Positions 15,946-24,528 of a DNA stretch of 61,383 bases are shown here, in pieces. A model generated the notes under the pieces. The model was not told where the DNA came from. It made no database searches and saw only the letters and a program-made list of their open reading frames with translations. Positions within the stretch are counted from its first letter, which is position 1. Each line of letters begins with the position of its first letter. Source of the DNA: Marinifilum sp. D714. GTDB lineage: Bacteria; Bacteroidota; Bacteroidia; Bacteroidales; Marinifilaceae. The DNA is taken from the NCBI RefSeq assembly GCF_030851345.1, contig NZ_JALPNU010000023.1, forward strand, positions 1 through 61,383, written 5' to 3'. The translations under genes and the position numbers were made by a program.

Positions 15946-16926
15946 TTATCTTCTAGCTTGATCGATCAGTTTTAAGTCTGCCAATGCAATGGCAGTAGCA
16001 GCTTCAATAATCACTGGGATGCGAAGTGCAATGCAGGCATCGTGACGACCTTCAATCAGCAGTTCTTCTACCTTTCCTTTGGCAAAGTTCATGGTGTTCT
16101 GAGTTTTCCCAATTGATGAGGTTGGTTTGATGGCTACGCGGAAAACCAATTCATTGCCATTGGTAATTCCACCATTGATACCACCTGCGTGATTGGTTTC
16201 TGTTTTTCCAGTTTCATCGATAAAGTTATCGTTGTGCTCCGAGCCTTTCATTTTAGCTGCTTCGAAACCCGAACCAAACTCAATACCCTTGGTTGCAGGA
16301 ATGGCAAATATCAGATGGGAAATCATTGATTCAACCGAATCGAAAAATGGTTCTCCATATCCTATTGGAAGATTGTTTGCTTTACACTCCACAATTCCTC
16401 CAATGGAATCATGTTCCAATAAAGCTTCCTCAATGGCAGCATCAAAATCGGTTCTACCACCTATTTCGGTAAGTTTGGCATCAATGCTAACATCTCCCAA
16501 TATCTTTTTCGCTACCACACCAGCTGCTACAATTCCCAGGGTAATTCTACCCGAAAAGTGACCGCCTCCTGTGTAGTCGTTGTTCTTTCCAAATTTATGC
16601 TGCGCCACAAAATCGGCATGTCCCGGACGTGGGCTATCCAATAAATTGCTGTAATCCTTCGATTGGGTATTCTTGTTTCTAAACAGGATAATGATTGGAG
16701 CTCCCGTTGTTTTGCCTTCAAAAGTTCCACTTAAAATGGCTGGTAAATCCTTCTCTATACGTGGTGTTGTTCCTCTTGCTCCAGATTTTCTGCGACCTAA
16801 ATCGTGCATTAAATCTTCTTCTGTAAGAGGAATTCCTGCCGGACAACCGTCAATGGTAATTCCAACTCCTTTACCATGTGATTCACCAAATATGCTTAAT
16901 CTGAATATTCTTCCGAAATTGTTCAT
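15946..16926 (-). CDS. aroC: Chorismate synthase
   Basis: This enzyme converts 5-enolpyruvylshikimate 3-phosphate to chorismate with reduced FMN, the last step of the shikimate pathway. The start is typical (FGRIFRLSIFGESHGKGVGITIDGCP is split here as the SIFGESHGKG motif followed by IDGCPAG). Also present are GRRKSGARGTTPRIEKD, GHADF, YTGGGHFSGRIT and GRHDACIALR. At 326 residues it is a short but complete version. It is the last gene of the aro operon. Confidence 0.95.
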   Translation of the reverse strand: MNNFGRIFRLSIFGESHGKGVGITIDGCPAGIPLTEEDLMHDLGRRKSGARGTTPRIEKDLPAILSGTFEGKTTGAPIIILFRNKNTQSKDYSNLLDSPRPGHADFVAQHKFGKNNDYTGGGHFSGRITLGIVAAGVVAKKILGDVSIDAKLTEIGGRTDFDAAIEEALLEHDSIGGIVECKANNLPIGYGEPFFDSVESMISHLIFAIPATKGIEFGSGFEAAKMKGSEHNDNFIDETGKTETNHAGGINGGITNGNELVFRVAIKPTSSIGKTQNTMNFAKGKVEELLIEGRHDACIALRIPVIIEAATAIALADLKLIDQARR

Positions 16927-16954: not shown

Positions 16955-17503
16955 CTAAATTAATGTTTTTGTCATGATAACATTGTCAATATATTCGCCA
17001 TCATGTGTTTTTATGAATTTTTCTTGCCTACCACTTTCTTCAAAACCAAATTTGCGGTACATGTGTAAGCCTAATAAGTTGGATCCAAATGCTTGTAGCC
17101 ATAAAAGTTCAATTTCCTGATTTCTTTCGTAGCAATCAATCATTTTCTGAAACAGAAGAGAACCGACGCCATTGTTTTGCCAAGCTTCATGAACACCCAT
17201 GCCAATGTATCCCGTATGCTTGAGCATGCTTCTTCTGCTGGATGTAACATCAATATTGCCAATAATTTCACCTTCATATTCCGCAATTAGCAATAAGCTG
17301 TTTGGAGCAGAATTTAGCTCATTAATCCAGTTTTCAATTTCTGTATCCGACTTATCAAATTCCTCTCTTGTAAAAGGAATGGTAACTCCATTAATATAGG
17401 AAAGAATACAATTTCTAAGTGAATGAGCATCCGAAATACTTGCCTCACGAAGTGTAGTTTCTTTGCCAGATTTGCTTGTGTGTATAGAAGGATCGACTTT
17501 CAT
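16955..17503 (-). CDS. GNAT-family N-acetyltransferase
   Basis: This 182-residue acetyltransferase has the acetyl-CoA binding motif in HTGYIGMGVHEAWQNNGVG and a C-terminal LGLHMYRKFGFEESGR segment. The N-terminal LREASISDAHSLRNCI is usual for the family. The substrate is unknown. It lies between aroC and the DUF523 gene with short gaps on both sides, so it is transcribed with the aro operon although no role in the pathway is evident. Confidence 0.8.
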   Translation of the reverse strand: MKVDPSIHTSKSGKETTLREASISDAHSLRNCILSYINGVTIPFTREEFDKSDTEIENWINELNSAPNSLLLIAEYEGEIIGNIDVTSSRRSMLKHTGYIGMGVHEAWQNNGVGSLLFQKMIDCYERNQEIELLWLQAFGSNLLGLHMYRKFGFEESGRQEKFIKTHDGEYIDNVIMTKTLI

Positions 17504-17518
17504 CGTTAGTGTATTATT

Positions 17519-17950
17519 TTATTCTTTAAAGTTCATTTCATTTTTGATTTCAACTCCTTGTTTCAACAATTGTTCTGCAGTTAGCCCATTTCCTTTGATT
17601 TTATTTCCTGTGAAACTGCCATCGTAAATCATTCCACATCCACAAGATGGACTATTGGCTTTTAAAATGGCTTGTTTACAGTCCAGGATTTTAGCAATCT
17701 CAGCTACCTTTTCAGCTCCTAGCAGGAATTGTGCTGTGCAATCAACTTGATCCTTTGTCATCACCTTTAATTGATTGTTCTCTTTCACAATTTCGCAAGG
17801 AGTTCGTGGGGTAGACAAGCCACCTAATTCTTCAGGACACAATGCAATGGCTTTTCCCGATAAAACCAGTTCTTTGATTTCAGCTACCAGGTTGTCATTG
17901 CCATCGTATCTGCATTTTACTCCTGCCAAACAGGAACTAACTATGATCAT
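17519..17950 (-). CDS. DUF523 family protein
   Basis: This 143-residue soluble protein has the family's conserved cysteine motifs: SSCLAGVKCRYDG at residues 5-17, ALCPEELGGL, and LKANSPSCG. DUF523 proteins have no established function; the cysteines suggest metal or cluster binding. It lies 12 bases downstream of aroA within the aro operon. The co-transcription may be incidental. Confidence 0.8.
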   Translation of the reverse strand: MIIVSSCLAGVKCRYDGNDNLVAEIKELVLSGKAIALCPEELGGLSTPRTPCEIVKENNQLKVMTKDQVDCTAQFLLGAEKVAEIAKILDCKQAILKANSPSCGCGMIYDGSFTGNKIKGNGLTAEQLLKQGVEIKNEMNFKE

Positions 17951-17962
17951 TGATATTGATTT

Positions 17963-19240
17963 TTATACAAATTGACTTTTGAAATAGAATTCTGCAACGC
18001 CGCCACCAATTTTTCTCAAATCTGTGAAAAAATCCGGATAAGATTTTGCAACACAATCATGATCACCAATTTCGACTGGATATTTTGAATTTAATCCGGC
18101 AACAGCCAATGCCATTGCAATCCTGTGATCGTTATTACTGTTTGTAATACCGCCAATTAATCTTCCTCCCGGGATTACCATTTCATCGCCTTCAATTCTG
18201 ATAGGTACAGCAAGTTTTCCAAATTCTTTCTGAAGTACAATACCTCTGTTGCTTTCCTTGTGCTCCAGTCGGTGTACTCCTTTAATTCTTGTATCGCCAT
18301 TACAATGAACCCCTAAAGCTACCAGAGGAGGGAAAAGGTCAGGACAATGAGTTGCATCAAATTCAAAGGCGTTCAATCCTTTCTTTTCAACCGTCAGGCT
18401 GTTGCCATTCCAATGTAAACTTGCTCCACATTTTTTCAAAGCATCCAAAATGGCAATGTCGGCCTGGTACGAATATGGATTCAAATTTTCAAGGGTAAGT
18501 TTACCTTTCAATGCTCCTGCTACCAGAAGTGGTGCCGCTGAACTCCAATCGGCTTCCACTGTGTATTCTATGGCTTTGTACTGCTGATTTCCTTTGATGG
18601 TAAAGCGCTTGTAATTTTCATGGCTGATTTCAATCCCAAAATCCTTTAACAAATCAATGGTCATGTTGATATAAGGAATGCTCTTGAGGTTGGTTACCTC
18701 CAAAATCGTATCTTCTTTCCTGCAAGGCAATGCCATTAAAAGACCTGTTAAGAACTGAGAACCCAATGCCCCGTTGGTCACGGCAGTATTATTTTTATAG
18801 CCACCTTCCAACTCGATGGGAAGTAATCCTTTACCTGGGTTTTTACATTCTATTCCCAGTGCTTCCAGTCCTTCAAGAATATTGTGAACCGGACGTTTCA
18901 GAATACTTCCACGACCATTAATACATACTGGTTCGGGATTTAAAGCCAAAATAGGAGAGAACATTCTTAATGATAATCCTGATTCTCCTACCATTACAGA
19001 TTTGGCAGCATTCTCTTTATTGCTTTTTACAAGGATTTTGTGTCCCAAATCCGTAAGATCGGCACCCATTTTTTGAATAATGTTGCTTGCTGCCGTAGCA
19101 TCATCACACCTGCATGGATTGAGAATACCTGTTTCACCTTTTGCCAAAGCAGCGGCTGCCAATGCTCGTTGCATCATGCTTTTCGAGCTGGGAGGAGTAA
19201 TGCTCCCTTTTATATTTGAATTTTGAATTCGAACTCTCAT
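17963..19240 (-). CDS. aroA: 3-phosphoshikimate 1-carboxyvinyltransferase (EPSP synthase)
   Basis: This enzyme transfers enolpyruvate from PEP to shikimate 3-phosphate. The 425-residue protein has the N-terminal SITPPSSKSMMQRALAAAAL with the substrate-binding Lys-Ser, the MVGESGLSLRMFSPIL segment, LGSQFLTGLLMALP, and the C-terminal NNDHRIAMALAVAGL. The gene starts 10 bases after aroB ends. A GESGLSLR motif in place of GNAGTAMR is seen in divergent Bacteroidota enzymes. Confidence 0.93.
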   Translation of the reverse strand: MRVRIQNSNIKGSITPPSSKSMMQRALAAAALAKGETGILNPCRCDDATAASNIIQKMGADLTDLGHKILVKSNKENAAKSVMVGESGLSLRMFSPILALNPEPVCINGRGSILKRPVHNILEGLEALGIECKNPGKGLLPIELEGGYKNNTAVTNGALGSQFLTGLLMALPCRKEDTILEVTNLKSIPYINMTIDLLKDFGIEISHENYKRFTIKGNQQYKAIEYTVEADWSSAAPLLVAGALKGKLTLENLNPYSYQADIAILDALKKCGASLHWNGNSLTVEKKGLNAFEFDATHCPDLFPPLVALGVHCNGDTRIKGVHRLEHKESNRGIVLQKEFGKLAVPIRIEGDEMVIPGGRLIGGITNSNNDHRIAMALAVAGLNSKYPVEIGDHDCVAKSYPDFFTDLRKIGGGVAEFYFKSQFV

Positions 19241-19250
19241 TGTTTTGTGG

Positions 19251-20294
19251 TTATTGTATTGGTTTTGGGTCTTTGCAAAGCTGAATGACCTTGCTTTTTA
19301 AATCTTCAATTGGAATTGACTTGATGCAAGCTTCTCCAATTTTTGTTAATAGTATAAAGTCGATAGAAGAGCGATTCTTTTTCTTGTCTTTAATCAGAAA
19401 ATCATTAATGGTTCCCGCAGGAACTTCATGATCAACAGGTAGCTTGAATTTCTTGAGAAGAGAAATGACCTCTGAGCTTTGCTCAGTATTCAAGCCACAC
19501 AATTCTTCTGATAGTTTTGTTGCCAAAGCCATTCCTACTGATACGGCCTCGCCATGCGTTAAATCAGAATTGTTTTCGATAGCATGACCAATGGTGTGAC
19601 CAAAATTCAACTTTTTACGCTCACCTCTTTCAAATGGATCGTTGTTTACAACATCAGTTTTGATTGATACTGCTCTGTAAATCAAATCTTCCATTAGTTT
19701 TGGTTCCAACTTTAACAGTGCATCCTTATTGTCTTTCAAAAACTCGAAAAGATCTTTATCCTTAATGAAAGCATGTTTAATCACTTCTCCAAAACCACTT
19801 CTCACTTCGCGTTCAGGCAATGTTTTTAGCAGTTGCGGATCGCAAATTACAAACTGGGGAGGATTGAAAACACCAATCATATTTTTGAGCTTGCCAAAAT
19901 TGATTCCGTTTTTTCCGCCAACACTTGCATCTACTTGCGATAAAAGGGAAGTAGAGATGAATCCAAACTCTAATCCTCGCATAAAGATAGAAGCAACAAA
20001 GCCTGTAACATCACAGACCAATCCGCCACCCATTCCCAATAGGTAGCTGTTTCTATCGGCTCCGGATTCAAGCAATTTTTCTACAATCTTTTCTACCGAT
20101 GACCAGGTTTTAATCCCTTCGCCACAGCCAATTATAATGTGATCAAAATCATCGATAAAACTTTTGTAATGAGCGTATATATTTTCATCGCAAATTAAAA
20201 AGCACTTCTTCTCAGGTAAGTATTTTTTAATGTTAAGATAGGATTCACCAATTAAGATTGTGCTGTTCTGATTTTCGATGTGTATGCTTTTCAT
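19251..20294 (-). CDS. aroB: 3-dehydroquinate synthase
   Basis: This NAD- and metal-dependent cyclase converts DAHP to 3-dehydroquinate. It has the NAD-binding LGMGGGLVCDVTGFVAS, LSQVDASVGGKNGINFGKLK, and the zinc-binding LNFGHTIGHAIE with its two histidines. The length of 347 aa is normal. It lies in the aro operon between the DAHP synthase and aroA. Confidence 0.95.
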   Translation of the reverse strand: MKSIHIENQNSTILIGESYLNIKKYLPEKKCFLICDENIYAHYKSFIDDFDHIIIGCGEGIKTWSSVEKIVEKLLESGADRNSYLLGMGGGLVCDVTGFVASIFMRGLEFGFISTSLLSQVDASVGGKNGINFGKLKNMIGVFNPPQFVICDPQLLKTLPEREVRSGFGEVIKHAFIKDKDLFEFLKDNKDALLKLEPKLMEDLIYRAVSIKTDVVNNDPFERGERKKLNFGHTIGHAIENNSDLTHGEAVSVGMALATKLSEELCGLNTEQSSEVISLLKKFKLPVDHEVPAGTINDFLIKDKKKNRSSIDFILLTKIGEACIKSIPIEDLKSKVIQLCKDPKPIQ

Positions 20295-20378: not shown

Positions 20379-21467
20379 TTACGAATTCATGATGTCTTCC
20401 TGCTGGTTGATTGACTCCTGGTGAATTGCTTTGAACAAATTATTAATGAATTGTTCACTGAATCCTTTTTTCTTCCCGTTTTCAAGGCTCTTTTCAAGAA
20501 TCTGTCCCCAACGTTTATTTTGTAATACAGTAATGTTATTTTCTTTTTTGTAATGACCAATTGTTTTGGCAACCTGCATTCTGTTTTCCAGTAATTCCAA
20601 AAGTTTCTGATCGAAGTCATCAATTAAGTGTCTCAATTCACCCAATGTGTTATTGATCACTTCGTTGTCAGCTTCAGGATCACGAAGCACTAAGTTAGCT
20701 AAAAGTTCTTCAAGTGTCTTAGGAGTCAGCTGTTGTTTTGCATCACTCCATGCTTCTTCTGGTTTGCAGTGCGATTCAATAATCAAACCTTCGTAGTTCA
20801 AATCCATCGATTTTTGAGTTACTTCTTCCAGGTAAGCTCTGTCACCGGTAATGTGGCTAGGATCGCAGAACATTGGCAAGTTTGGCAATCTTCTTTTCAT
20901 CTCAATTGGAATCTGCCATTGCGGATCGTTTCTGTATTTTAATTTTTGGTAGGTAGAAAAACCTCTGTGAATTGCAGCTAGTTTGGTTAAACCTACTGCA
21001 CTTAGTCTTTCAATTGCTCCAATCCATAATTCCAAATCTGGATTAATAGGATTTTTTACCAATACCGGAATATCATGACCTCGTAATGCATCTGCAATTT
21101 CTTGTACAGCGAAAGGATTTACAGTAGTTCTTGCGCCAATCCAAAGAATATCAACACCTGCACCAAGCGCCAATTCAACATGTTTTGCGTTGGCAACCTC
21201 AGTTGCGGTTAGCATTCCTGTTTCAGCTTTAACCTTTTGTAGCCAGATTAACCCTTGGGCGCCAATTCCTTCGAAACTATTTGGGCGAGTTCTTGGTTTC
21301 CAGATACCTGCACGGAAAATAGGAATTCCTGCGGCTTTGATTCCTCTTGCTGTTTCCAATACTTGTTCTTCTGTTTCAGCACTACAAGGACCACCAATAA
21401 TTAATGGTCTGTCAATATTTTCGATTGGCCAACTGCTTAGTTCTGCTATTTCAATTTTTTTGCTCAT
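20379..21467 (-). CDS. Bifunctional DAHP synthase / chorismate mutase
   Basis: The N-terminal domain (about residues 1-260) is a 3-deoxy-7-phosphoheptulonate synthase of the KDO8P-like type, with GGPCSAETEEQVLETA, FRAGIWKPRTRPNSFEG, VLVKNPINPD and FCDPSHITG. The C-terminal domain (about 270-355) is an AroQ-type chorismate mutase (LRHLIDDFDQKLLELLENRM, then IGHYKKENNI). The fusion joins the first step of the pathway with the Phe/Tyr branch point; in related proteins the mutase domain also serves feedback control. It sits between tyrA and aroB in the operon. Confidence 0.93.
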   Translation of the reverse strand: MSKKIEIAELSSWPIENIDRPLIIGGPCSAETEEQVLETARGIKAAGIPIFRAGIWKPRTRPNSFEGIGAQGLIWLQKVKAETGMLTATEVANAKHVELALGAGVDILWIGARTTVNPFAVQEIADALRGHDIPVLVKNPINPDLELWIGAIERLSAVGLTKLAAIHRGFSTYQKLKYRNDPQWQIPIEMKRRLPNLPMFCDPSHITGDRAYLEEVTQKSMDLNYEGLIIESHCKPEEAWSDAKQQLTPKTLEELLANLVLRDPEADNEVINNTLGELRHLIDDFDQKLLELLENRMQVAKTIGHYKKENNITVLQNKRWGQILEKSLENGKKKGFSEQFINNLFKAIHQESINQQEDIMNS

Positions 21468-21547: not shown

Positions 21548-22444
21548 TCAGGCTCTTCTTATTCTTTTTGCATTCTTAATGGTTTCAGCTTCATTTCTTT
21601 CTTTTTTATCTAAAACCCTACGAATGTCATTGGCTTCATTAATCAAATCATCAACTCCTTTTAAATCGTCATGTTCAATTCGATCTTTAAATTGCTGTAG
21701 TGTATCGATATATTTTTGAAGGACTTTACCAATGTTCTTTTTGTTCTGATGGAAAATTGGTGTCCACATTTCGGCCGAACTTTTTGCCAATCGAACGGTA
21801 GAGTCGAAACCACCACTTGCCAATTCAAAAATGTGTTTGTCTTTCTTTTCCTTCTGCAAAACGGTTAGCGACAAGGCGAATGCGCTGATATGCGAAAGGT
21901 GAGAAACATAGGCAGTTTGTCTGTCGTGTACCTCTGCATCCATGTATACGCATCGCATTTGTAATGTGTGAAACATGTCGCTAATCATGTTAACCGCTTC
22001 TTTGTCCGAATCTTCAGGATTACAAATAATAGAACATTTGCCATCAAACAATCCTGAGTGTGCCGCTTGTGGACCAGAAAATTCGGTACCCGCCATTGGG
22101 TGGGCAGGAACATATTGCTTTCTTTTTGGATGATTTGCTATGGATTCTATCAACTGTTCTTTAGTCGATCCCAAATCGGTTACAATCTGCTGATCTACCA
22201 TGTCCATTATTTGCGGAAGAGATTTAAGACATGCACTTACCGGAATGGCAAGAATTACCAGATGAGATGATTCAACCGCAGTTCTTAAATCCTGTATTTC
22301 ATCTGCAATACCCAACTTTTTGGCTTGATGTGCATGCATTGGATTATTGTCCACTCCAATCACCTTGTCAGCAAATCCTCTTTGCTTTAAATCCAAAGCA
22401 ATAGAGCCACCAATTAGTCCTAATCCTATAACTGAAACTATCAT
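21548..22444 (-). CDS. tyrA: Prephenate dehydrogenase
   Basis: This enzyme oxidatively decarboxylates prephenate to 4-hydroxyphenylpyruvate for tyrosine. The 298-residue protein opens with the NAD-binding GLGLIGGSIALDLKQRG, and has DLGSTKEQLIE, HPMAGTEFSGP and the helical C-terminal domain with RQTAYVSHLSHISAFAL. It ends with a basic tail rich in Arg/Lys. Only three bases separate it from the aminotransferase gene upstream. Confidence 0.94.
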   Translation of the reverse strand: MIVSVIGLGLIGGSIALDLKQRGFADKVIGVDNNPMHAHQAKKLGIADEIQDLRTAVESSHLVILAIPVSACLKSLPQIMDMVDQQIVTDLGSTKEQLIESIANHPKRKQYVPAHPMAGTEFSGPQAAHSGLFDGKCSIICNPEDSDKEAVNMISDMFHTLQMRCVYMDAEVHDRQTAYVSHLSHISAFALSLTVLQKEKKDKHIFELASGGFDSTVRLAKSSAEMWTPIFHQNKKNIGKVLQKYIDTLQQFKDRIEHDDLKGVDDLINEANDIRRVLDKKERNEAETIKNAKRIRRA

Positions 22445-22447
22445 TTT

Positions 22448-23611
22448 TTAGTTTTTTCTTGATTTTTCGATACGTTGAATTGCCTCATTCATTACAGATT
22501 CGCTGCTGCATAAAGAAATTCTGATGTATCTTTTTCCTTGCTCTCCAAAAATTCCTCCAGGAGTAATAAATACTTTTACTTGCTTTAAAATCTCATCACT
22601 TAATTCGTAACAATCTTTGTACTGATCAGGAATTGATGCCCAAACAAACATTCCACTTTGATCCTGGCTCGGCTTACAATTGATCAATTTCATTAATGAA
22701 AAAACCAACTCTCTTCTGGTTTTGTAAACCTGATTGATCGATTCGTACCAGCTTTTGTCATGACTTAGAGCTTTAATGGCAGCTTGTTGTACTGGATAGA
22801 ACATTCCAGAATCCATATTGGTTTTAACTTTTAAAACCGGTTCCAGAAGTTCTTTGCTTCCGCAGATCATTCCAACTCTCCAGCCTGGCATATTGTGCGA
22901 CTTGCTTAATGAGTTCAGTTCCAGACAACAATCTTTGGCTCCTTCAATACTCATAATGCTCATTGGCTGATCGTTCAGAATAAAGCTGTATGGATTGTCG
23001 TTTACAATCAATATTTTGTGCCTTCTTCCAAATGTAACAATCTTCTTCAATAAATCTTTGCTGGCTCTTGCTCCAGTTGGCATGTGTGGATAATTGATCC
23101 ACATGATTTTTACCTTTGACAGATCTCTTTTTTCCAATTCATCAAGATCTGGTTGCCAATTTTGCTCTTCGCAAAGCGGATAAGAAATGATTTTACCACT
23201 CAGTAAATTGCTTACCGACTTGTAAGTTGGATAGGACGGATCTGGTATTAAAACTTCGTCGCCTTCATTTAGGTAAGCCAAAGAAGTTATCATGATGCCT
23301 TCCTTCGATCCCATAAGTGGCAGAACTTCACTATCAGGATTAATGTCCACATCAAAATAAGTTTTGTACCAGTTCGAAAATCCCTGGCGTAAGGCAGGAA
23401 TTCCCTGGTAGCTCTGATATCCATGACTTTTGGGATGAATACATGCTTCCTTTAATGAGTTCCATGTGTCTTCAGAAGGAGTCATATCCGGATCTCCAAT
23501 TCCAAGGTTTAGAACTTTTACTTCACCCTCGTTCATACGAGCAATCTCCTTCAGTTTTACTGAGAAGTAGTACTCCTTAATTACCTGAGTTCTGTTAGCT
23601 GGTTGAATCAT
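22448..23611 (-). CDS. Class I/II PLP-dependent aminotransferase of the aro operon
   Basis: This 387-residue enzyme has the PLP-binding Lys in ELNSLSKSHNMPGWRVGM, the WINYPHMPTGA segment and a C-terminal KRYIRISLCSSE with the carboxylate-binding Arg. As first gene of an operon for Phe and Tyr synthesis, it probably transaminates aromatic keto acids (or prephenate) with Glu or Asp. Aspartate or LL-diaminopimelate aminotransferase activity cannot be excluded. It follows directly after the second attenuator terminator. Confidence 0.85.
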   Translation of the reverse strand: MIQPANRTQVIKEYYFSVKLKEIARMNEGEVKVLNLGIGDPDMTPSEDTWNSLKEACIHPKSHGYQSYQGIPALRQGFSNWYKTYFDVDINPDSEVLPLMGSKEGIMITSLAYLNEGDEVLIPDPSYPTYKSVSNLLSGKIISYPLCEEQNWQPDLDELEKRDLSKVKIMWINYPHMPTGARASKDLLKKIVTFGRRHKILIVNDNPYSFILNDQPMSIMSIEGAKDCCLELNSLSKSHNMPGWRVGMICGSKELLEPVLKVKTNMDSGMFYPVQQAAIKALSHDKSWYESINQVYKTRRELVFSLMKLINCKPSQDQSGMFVWASIPDQYKDCYELSDEILKQVKVFITPGGIFGEQGKRYIRISLCSSESVMNEAIQRIEKSRKN

Positions 23612-23657
23612 TTCTATGTTTGTTAAAAATTGTGGTTTTGGTTTTGTTCAAAAAAAA

Positions 23658-23680
23658 ATCCTGCTCTTTTCGGGCAGGAT
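23658..23680 (-). terminator. Attenuator terminator 2 of the aro operon
   Basis: On the minus strand, ATCCTGC...GCAGGAT forms a 7-bp stem (with extra G-C pairing in the loop), followed by nine T residues (23658-23650). It lies between leader peptide 2 and the aminotransferase start, where an attenuator terminator is expected. Confidence 0.85.
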
Positions 23681-23701
23681 CGTTTATACTTTTTACTTGA
23701 G

Positions 23702-23785
23702 TTATGGTATAAGGCATCCCGCCCGATTTGTGTTAAACCAGAAATAATAAAAGTAAAATCGGTATGTAAATGCTTTGTTACTCAT
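23702..23785 (-). CDS. Aromatic leader peptide 2 of the aro operon
   Basis: This 27-residue open frame starts with ATG at 23785 and contains the run FTYRFYFYYFWF (residues 6-17), that is, ten Phe, Tyr or Trp residues out of twelve. It is followed 21 bases later by an intrinsic terminator. This is the classical layout of ribosome-mediated attenuation: scarcity of charged aromatic tRNAs would stall the ribosome and prevent terminator formation. An 18-base stretch of its coding sequence (23735-23752) is repeated exactly in leader peptide 1, so the two arose by duplication. Confidence 0.85.
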   Translation of the reverse strand: MSNKAFTYRFYFYYFWFNTNRAGCLIP

Positions 23786-23805
23786 GCTTCAATTTATTCA
23801 TAAAA

Positions 23806-23834
23806 AAAGGTCTTACCTGTTGGGCAAGACCTTT
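23806..23834 (-). terminator. Attenuator terminator 1 of the aro operon
   Basis: On the minus strand, a 9-bp stem AAAGGTCTT / AAGACCTTT, plus inner CC/GG pairs, is followed by a run of T residues (23808-23802). It lies 40 bases after the stop of leader peptide 1 and upstream of leader peptide 2. Confidence 0.85.
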
Positions 23835-23874
23835 GATTTATATTCTTCGTATTACTACATATCAATTCTCGCCC

Positions 23875-23943
23875 TTATCTTGTTGGATAAAAGTAAAACC
23901 AGAAATAATAAAAATTAGAAATGTATGTAGATACTGTTTTCAT
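23875..23943 (-). CDS. Aromatic leader peptide 1 of the aro operon
   Basis: This 22-residue open frame starts with ATG at 23943, about 20 bases after the predicted transcription start, and contains FYYFWFYFY (residues 11-19), nine aromatic residues in a row. It is followed by attenuator terminator 1. The three aromatic amino acids are mixed, so the switch should respond to lack of any of Phe, Tyr or Trp, matching an operon that makes their common precursor and tyrosine. Confidence 0.88.
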   Translation of the reverse strand: MKTVSTYISNFYYFWFYFYPTR

Positions 23944-23969
23944 CACTGTTTTTTGCGTTAATTCTGATT

Positions 23970-24000
23970 CAAATGTATGAATTAATTTTTTACCTGCAAA
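23970..24000 (-). promoter_or_regulatory. Promoter of the aro operon
   Basis: On the minus strand, TTTG (24000-23997), a 19-base spacer and TACATTTG (23977-23970) fit the Bacteroidota promoter exactly. Transcription would start near 23963, just before leader peptide 1. Confidence 0.7.
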
Positions 24001-24324
24001 TTTAAATTGCTTTACTTAATGAAACGTTAACGTTTGAGTAGGTTAATTTAGATTGCTCTTTAGTTAGTAAAATCAGGCTTTTCAGAACTTTTTAAAGAAT
24101 TTTAATTTTTCTGTTGTTGTTATGAGAATATGGGGGAAGATTTTGAAAATAATCTCTTTTTTCAATACTACCCCTTCTAAAAAAGGGTGTGATGGAAATA
24201 ATCTTAAGGTTAAACATGAAATTTAAAAATTAACAAAAAAAACACATTCGCTTTGAAGTGTAATGTTTAAAAGGGATACAGAGCTTGTGGAGAATAGAAA
24301 TTTAAGGTGAATTGAAAAATTGTA
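24001..24324. other. AT-rich spacer between the divergent aro and trp promoters
   Basis: About 320 bases between the two promoters hold no gene. One short stem-like element (ACCCCTTCTAAAAAAGGGTGT, around 24171-24190) is visible. No operator sequence is recognised. Confidence 0.5.
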
Positions 24325-24378: not shown

Positions 24379-24465
24379 ATGTTCGGATTAAATAGCAAAT
24401 ATTGGTGGTGGTACAACTGTAATCTCTCAAATACCATGAGCGGAAGTGTCCTCCCTATGTGCTAA
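24379..24465 (+). CDS. trpL: trp operon leader peptide
   Basis: This 28-residue open frame contains Tyr-Trp-Trp-Trp-Tyr at residues 8-12 and ends with Pro-Met-Cys before TAA. It is followed 26 bases later by a strong terminator and then trpE. Tandem Trp codons before a terminator are the hallmark of tryptophan attenuation: low Trp-tRNA stalls the ribosome on the Trp codons and allows read-through into trpE. Confidence 0.9.
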   Translation: MFGLNSKYWWWYNCNLSNTMSGSVLPMC

Positions 24466-24491
24466 AATCAAACGAAAGAAAAGATAAAGCA

Positions 24492-24528
24492 AGCGGCCTA
24501 CTGAAACTCAGTAGGCCGCTTTTTTTTT
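24492..24528 (+). terminator. trp attenuator terminator
   Basis: AGCGGCCTACTG (24492-24503) and CAGTAGGCCGCT (24509-24520) form a perfect 12-bp stem with a 5-base loop, followed directly by eight further T residues. It lies between the leader peptide and trpE. Confidence 0.92.

Follow-up and report, generated by a model that had tools for sequence, protein, structure and literature searches.

Two predicted ribosome-mediated attenuators in series ahead of the aro operon of Marinifilum sp. D714

The leader region and its genes

The window (the whole stretch analyzed here, 61,383 nt of contig NZ_JALPNU010000023.1) carries on its minus strand two modules in series, each consisting of a short aromatic-rich ORF, an antiterminator arm, and an intrinsic terminator. 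The order on this strand is promoter-like site, leader 1, terminator 1, leader 2, terminator 2, and transaminase gene (Table 1). The original prediction had placed one promoter ahead of a leader peptide with nine aromatic residues in a row and a second with ten of twelve aromatic, each followed by a terminator, and all of these parts were found, with one promoter-like site, ahead of leader 1. This site fits the promoter consensus of Bacteroidota. Each of the two leaders carries Phe, Tyr, and Trp codons. The start of leader 1 was taken as ATG, also by the detector described below; the ORF lister has a GTG one codon earlier. In each module the arm takes up the 5′ strand of its own terminator stem, and antiterminator and terminator exclude each other.

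The region 23,645 to 23,970 folds with a z-score of −4.55 relative to shuffled sequences. Modules 1 and 2 score 38.4 and 33.4 bits, respectively, against the Rfam family RF01859 (Phe_leader), below the curators' threshold of 55 bits. No Rfam family reaches its gathering score within the window, where 17 further weak matches were seen besides Phe_leader. Terminator 2 is absent from the minus-strand list of a generic terminator scan because its 9-nt loop exceeds the limit of the scan; the same palindromic stem is listed on the plus strand.

The genes that follow the leaders (tyrA, aroG/aroQ, aroB, and aroA) make aromatic amino acids, that is, those that the leader codons would sense. The first gene is 95 to 98% identical to three named Marinifilum loci, and for its product no NCBIfam model was over the cut-off among the 25 of 55 matches listed. 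The aroC gene lies on the same strand as aroA, separated from it by two ORFs (17519–17950 and 16955–17503).

Table 1. Features of the leader region and of the genes downstream, in window coordinates
Feature	Position	Strand	Description and basis
Promoter-like site	23970..24000	minus	TTTG-N19-TACATTTG; read from sequence, Bacteroidota type
Leader peptide 1	23875..23943	minus	MKTVSTYISNFYYFWFYFYPTR, then stop; 9/9 aromatic residues in a row; ORF and detector
Antiterminator arm 1	23867..23874	minus	GGGCGAGA, immediately 3′ of stop codon 1; pairing partner 23829–23822, TCTTGCCC
Intrinsic terminator 1	23799..23834	minus	Stem-loop 23834–23806 and T tract; terminator scan
Leader peptide 2	23702..23785	minus	MSNKAFTYRFYFYYFWFNTNRAGCLIP, then stop; 10/12 aromatic; ORF and detector
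Antiterminator arm 2	23716..23726	minus	TCGGGCGGGAT, within the end of leader 2; pairs with 23680–23670, ATCCTGCCCGA
Intrinsic terminator 2	23650..23680	minus	Stem 23680–23658, T tract to 23650; sequence and detector
Exact 18-base repeat	23735..23752 (in leader 2) and 23896..23913 (in leader 1)	minus	Sequence comparison
Class I/II aminotransferase, first operon gene	22448..23611	minus	PF00155
Prephenate dehydrogenase (tyrA)	21548..22444	minus	NF006307 over cut-off
DAHP synthase fused to chorismate mutase (aroG/aroQ)	20379..21467	minus	PF00793 and PF01817 over cut-off
3-Dehydroquinate synthase (aroB)	19251..20294	minus	TIGR01357 over cut-off
EPSP synthase (aroA)	17963..19240	minus	TIGR01356 over cut-off
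Chorismate synthase (aroC)	15946..16926	minus	TIGR00033 over cut-off

Modules were detected as an ORF of at most 45 codons with six aromatic residues out of eight, followed by a terminator within 130 nt. On both strands of the window, this detector finds the two leader modules and nothing else. For comparison with relatives, 220 regions upstream of homologous transaminase genes were grouped into 206 clusters, five of which were dropped because the upstream sequence was too short. The remaining 201 nonredundant regions contained two modules in 29 cases, one in 113, and none in 59, and dinucleotide shuffles of these upstream regions yielded a module in 0 of 603 sequences, with a single module in 4 of the 201 reverse complements. 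With a relaxed threshold of five residues out of eight, the counts became 32 double, 121 single, and 48 without a module, with one module in 1/603 shuffles and 16/201 reverse complements. The two-module layout is not due to chance.

Pairing, folding, and conservation of the two modules

Arm-side regions pair better with their own terminator than with swapped ones in single modules (n = 113, p = 2e-20), in first modules (n = 29, p = 1e-6), and in second modules (n = 29, p = 8e-8). Own pairing also exceeds pairing with the other module of the same locus (means of 10.9 and 7.7, p = 1e-9); since the loci are related, all of these p values are optimistic. Looked at individually, own pairing beats at least 90% of the swaps in 68 of the 113 single modules and, among the 29 double loci, in 22 first and 17 second modules.

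The window was aligned with 19 relatives from five genera, giving an alignment of 20 sequences. The reading frame and aromatic run of leader 1 are retained in all 19 relatives, and leader 2 is conserved as well. Terminator pairs are kept in 99.4% of the counted cells: in terminator 1, all counted pairs are kept and two pairs have changed on both sides, and in terminator 2, 98.6% are kept, with a mismatch in 2 of the 20 sequences. Antiterminator pairs are kept in 93.6%; within this alignment, none has changed on both sides, and their covariation does not clearly exceed that of the control.

Folding with a ribosome masking part of the leader was calculated for an assumed footprint that extends 14 nt upstream and 15 nt downstream from the first base of the P-site codon. 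In module 2, the antiterminator has a probability of 0.77 to 0.99 with codons 6 to 17 in the A site, and the terminator has a probability of at least 0.98 from codon 18 onward, meaning that the module flips state at the end of its aromatic run. A stricter calculation, based on the full helix, gave break-even at codon 16, with the helix partly covered at codon 17. Left without a ribosome, module 2 folds into the read-through state. In module 1, the antiterminator is the equilibrium state before the 3′ arm of the terminator has been made (cost of 0.0 kcal/mol). Sterically, this antiterminator can form with the ribosome at any of the aromatic codons, whereas a ribosome anywhere from codon 20 to the stop blocks it. 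Once the transcript is full length, terminator 1 is the favored structure, by 2.2 to 8.2 kcal/mol, at each aromatic codon of the run apart from the first (codon 11), and its probability is at least 0.929 with codons 12 to 23 in the A site. Module 1 would therefore depend on an antiterminator formed first, during transcription, or else allow only poor read-through.

The folding of module 1 bears on another explanation of the locus, according to which module 2 alone is a working switch, module 1 being either a relic or a terminator of constant, partial strength that keeps basal transcription low. Such an explanation could account for the stronger hairpin of terminator 1, which wins the equilibrium at nearly all stall positions, and for the first antiterminator of genus g134, which has just five to six pairs. 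It sits poorly, however, with the preservation, in the window and its 19 relatives, of the leader 1 frame and aromatic run and of every pair counted in terminator 1, with the preference of first-module regions for their own terminator, with the equilibrium state of antiterminator 1 until the terminator's 3′ arm is made, and with the recurrence of first modules in other families. We thus consider it unlikely that only module 2 works.

Steric blocking was also calculated for 30 double loci, comprising the 29 representatives plus the window, which itself belongs to one of those clusters. A ribosome at the stop codon sterically blocks the antiterminator in 49 of the 60 modules, and of the 592 aromatic A-site codons from codon 6 onward, 555 allow the antiterminator to form. 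Weak antiterminators were seen in the first modules of genus g134 and in the second modules of loci L151 and L181. Insulation between the two modules is partial. In the Marinifilum/Labilibaculum clade, terminator 1 is a possible partner for arm 2 as well, and in L035, L121, and L123 it is a better one than the arm's own terminator; L151 shows this preference too, and in L125 it is arm 1 that prefers terminator 2. Pairing of arm 2 with terminator 1 may do little harm, since arm 2 is transcribed only after terminator 1 has been made and has decided.

In 27 of 29 double loci, the first leader stops 33 to 49 nt ahead of its terminator, and in 26 of 29 the second stops 8 to 26 nt ahead of its own, a distance so short that the second leader usually extends over its antiterminator arm. 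Locus L157 has the reverse arrangement, with distances of 19 nt for the first leader and 42 nt for the second.

Distribution, origin, and other operons

The search of Bacteroidota for the same layout that the original prediction had proposed was carried out in samples limited to genomes with a close transaminase homologue (35 of 56 in the family of the window, 48 of 149 in the order, and 60 of 296 in the phylum). Within the family, 29 of 35 loci carry two modules, and the other six have one at the relaxed threshold. The order-wide sample has a double layout in 6 of 48 loci, rising to 7 at the relaxed threshold and to 8 when L027, recognized by eye, is included. Across the phylum, 2 of 60 loci are double (one being the window), 32 are single, and 26 lack a module. 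Contigs of named genomes gave 5 doubles out of 80, four of them in Marinifilum/Labilibaculum and one in Saprospiraceae; a second Saprospiraceae locus, L045, is double at the relaxed threshold. The pheA gene lies just upstream of the transaminase gene in 163 of 201 clusters, and in such pheA-adjacent loci with a single module, the module precedes pheA in 105 of 105.

In a FastTree tree of 173 transaminases, the distinction between double and not double requires 10 changes, 4 of which are forced by the starred branches, although several long branches meet in this tree and gain is indistinguishable from loss. Three loci were labeled double by hand, namely L027 (second terminator seen by eye) and L045 and L156 (relaxed threshold). 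A further candidate, L066, which reached two modules solely at the relaxed threshold, was dismissed as spurious.

The 18-base repeat had been taken as showing that the modules are duplicates. Its exact identity and its position were correct, and it sits inside a 53-nt repeat of 75% identity. As proof of duplication it does not hold, as matches of this length also occur with single leaders of other loci. The repeat falls within the run of aromatic codons. When the window leaders were compared with the single-module leaders of other loci, 4 of 226 comparisons reached at least 18 shared bases, as did 122 of 6328 pairs of single leaders from different clusters (some from related genera) and 20 of 5000 codon-shuffled versions of the window cores. 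On these frequencies, the repeat was rejected as decisive evidence. Similarity between the two leader cores of a locus is matched by at most 0.004 of the 226 single comparisons in 4 of the 29 double loci (L032, L113, L116, and L121), all from the Marinifilum/Labilibaculum clade; the fraction is 0.035 to 0.044 in L034, L010, L125, and L128 and at least 0.062 in the remaining 21. The parts between stop codon and terminator are never unusually alike between the modules of the 29 double loci (lowest fraction 0.088). In L032, the sequences of antiterminator arms 1 and 2 (GGGCAAGA and GGGCAGGA) are identical except for one position, which is compatible with an old duplication.

Other amino acid operons carry similar elements, a recurrence that, like the one in other families, the original prediction had not noticed. 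The genome of the window itself has doubled modules on pheA and ilvD and single ones on his and trp. Its pheA gene, located elsewhere (L164:794-1037, G000:C25), is preceded by two tandem modules with Phe as the sole aromatic codon; the first leader, MNRVHTNRFFFFFSI, is short, has five Phe, was detected at the relaxed threshold only, and has a weak antiterminator, and the second is MRTIFSFSFFFSFFFFGDEKDRILMV. Reading 30 of 33 pheA loci placed 16 apart from the aro operon, 12 beside the transaminase gene, and 2 (L264 and L265) before tyrA and aroG. The latter two were first classed as pheA alone, with no transaminase gene nearby, and are pheA-tyrA-aroG operons with a leader of mixed Phe and Tyr codons. 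The separate pheA loci are double in 4 of 16 cases (L243, L244, L245, and L251).

Upstream of ilvD, 20 of the 30 family loci read (of 33) are double, including that of the window's own genome (L337, G000:C72), in which the tandem Ile/Val/Leu leaders VIIINVIILVLL and VIIIVIIISIVII each have a terminator. The order sample of ilvD, comprising 30 read of 67 places found and including two family members, gave 15 single, 14 without a module, and 1 double, the last being the window's own genome. For hisG, 25 of 30 loci read (of 44) are single and 4 are double, with tandem His leaders (L278, L283, L289, and L290, all from one genus of the family, g134). The trpE leader is single in 22 and double in 0 of 28 loci. 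Reverse-complement controls for ilvD, hisG, and trpE showed one module in 1 of 88 regions. Twenty stretches upstream of thrA gave five matches, in which leaders or terminators were poor.

Signal, mechanism, and known systems

The two modules appear to lie on one transcript. Within the 130 nt ahead of leader 1, the motif TTG-N18-21-TANNTTTG was found in 20 of the 29 double loci and in none of the 29 reverse-complement controls; for single loci, the corresponding numbers were 44 and 4 of 112. Between the two leader starts, it occurs in none of the 29 double loci. The distance from the end of the terminator 1 stem to start codon 2 is only 9 to 34 nt in 28 of 29 doubles, with an overlap of 11 nt in the remaining one, and such a gap leaves no room for a promoter. 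The spacing between the two terminators is 143 to 194 nt.

Leader codons follow the genes that are controlled, as shown by the contrast between pheA and aro leaders. The leaders of pheA loci apart from the aro operon have a Phe:Tyr ratio of 141:4 (14 of the 16 separate loci, leaving out L249, with 74 nt upstream, and L258, with no module), and leaders of transaminase-tyrA-aro operons from the same clade have a ratio of 102:120 (12 loci; Fisher p = 1e-28, with related loci). In the 29 double loci, the fraction F/(F+Y) is alike in first and second leaders (0.488 versus 0.497, p = 0.40), and Trp occurs in 22 first and 21 second leaders. Both aromatic leaders would therefore read the same amino acids, which favors a double gate for a single signal, and it is most likely that both attenuators work on that same signal.

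These codon counts also speak to the idea of a two-input gate in which each module has an amino acid of its own, such as Tyr for one and Phe for the other. A two-signal tandem of this kind is known: the mgtCBR leader of Salmonella has two leader ORFs in one leader RNA, both of which govern elongation, as would be the case in the window (PMC3641672). It differs in responding additively to two signals, ATP and proline, and in having stem-loops unlike intrinsic terminators (PMC3641672). Judged by codons alone, a difference in signal between the leaders was not found here; Phe, Tyr, and Trp codons are present in each window leader, and their make-up is equal in first and second leaders. The different-signal reading was rejected on this basis and seems to us very unlikely.

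The features described above are best explained by a single leader RNA that carries, one after the other, two ribosome-mediated transcription attenuators of the classical kind, both of which must report shortage for expression (probability roughly 0.8). Two complete attenuators, as originally predicted, are supported by the anatomy, its conservation, the arm–terminator preference, the folding switch of module 2, and the fit between leader codons and the genes controlled. RNA polymerase would start near position 23,965, and a ribosome would initiate on leader 1. With plentiful aromatic aminoacyl-tRNAs, the ribosome would reach the end of leader 1 and cover the arm GGGCGAGA, allowing terminator 1 to fold, and transcription would end near 23,800. 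A stall at a Phe, Tyr, or Trp codon would instead leave arm 1 free to capture TCTTGCCC, and the polymerase would go on. About 150 nt further on, a second test would follow, with fresh initiation on leader 2 and a separate pair of arm and terminator, so that the operon would be transcribed only when both tests report shortage. The requirement for both would mean that the leak under amino acid excess is multiplied (low times low) and that the response should be steeper. Stalling, termination, the multiplication of the two steps, and any benefit are what we infer.

A trp leader RNA of rhizobia functions in trans, and one could imagine that the terminated short transcripts or the leader peptides do so here, with the doubling yielding two of them. 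From the positions of the terminators, short RNAs of two sizes, about 165 and about 315 nt, would be predicted. The ends of the leader peptides and the spacers vary, however, while the aromatic runs and the arm–terminator pairing stay, as expected of a device that works in cis, and we give a trans function very little credence.

The classical attenuators of amino acid operons are those of trp, his, and pheA in enterobacteria. The window modules share with them a leader ORF rich in codons for the product, mutually exclusive antiterminator and terminator, an intrinsic terminator, and a cognate operon downstream. They differ in that two full units would stand on one transcript, in a simple two-helix arrangement, and in their mixed Phe, Tyr, and Trp codons. 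A 2004 comparative study reportedly described attenuators in Bacteroidetes. In Flavobacterium psychrophilum, leader peptides ahead of amino acid operons have been proposed to act by attenuation, and pheA and hisG were described as preceded by conserved 5′ elements without Rfam matches (PMC9723704). These are probably the single form of the same element, and no doubling is described in the accessible text of that study (PMC9723704).

Two further systems combine regulatory units. The "double-lock" of mefA/msrD has two attenuators, for which the authors propose suppressed basal expression; it differs in that the second attenuator acts on msrD only, so that the pair does not share all of its target genes, and in that stalling is induced by an antibiotic and not by tRNA charging (PMC10314930). 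Tandem "pseudo-cooperative" riboswitches consist of at least two complete switches for the same ligand, in series, from which a steeper, more "digital" response is expected; their sensor is an RNA aptamer, whereas in the window it would be a translating ribosome (PMC9481103). No ligand-binding aptamer of a known class was found in the window at the Rfam gathering score. The original prediction was aware of no described double attenuator of this kind, which stands for the same-signal form, for which our literature search, with subscription journals mostly outside its reach, found no case. In a wider sense it does not stand, since two-signal tandems, the "double-lock," and same-ligand tandem riboswitches are all in print.

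Within Marinifilaceae, doubling occurs on aromatic, Phe, and branched-chain operons and, in one genus, on his. We see about even odds that same-signal doubling in series is a recurrent design in Bacteroidota, with two independent initiations about 150 nt apart and two successive reports of shortage needed. If so, the double check would amount to proofreading of the starvation signal, with the off-state leak squared. Attenuation, one of the founding examples of gene control, is presented in textbooks with a single leader and a single terminator; a doubled same-signal form that recurs in distant families and across several operons within a genome would be a natural test of what is gained by reading a signal twice, whether reduced leak, a steeper response, or the filtering of noise. 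Such a form would also parallel the same-ligand tandem riboswitches, with the ribosome as the sensor. As single (his and trp) and double (aro, pheA, and ilv) forms coexist in one genome, the question is directly testable.

On the divergent side of the aro promoter, the trp operon has its own single leader on the plus strand (24379–24465, with KYWWWYN), followed by a strong terminator (24491–24521); a simple search of 24379–24521 gave no convincing antiterminator arm. Just upstream of the aro promoter, at 24011–24046, lies the palindrome AAACGTTAACGTTT, which could be a repressor operator.
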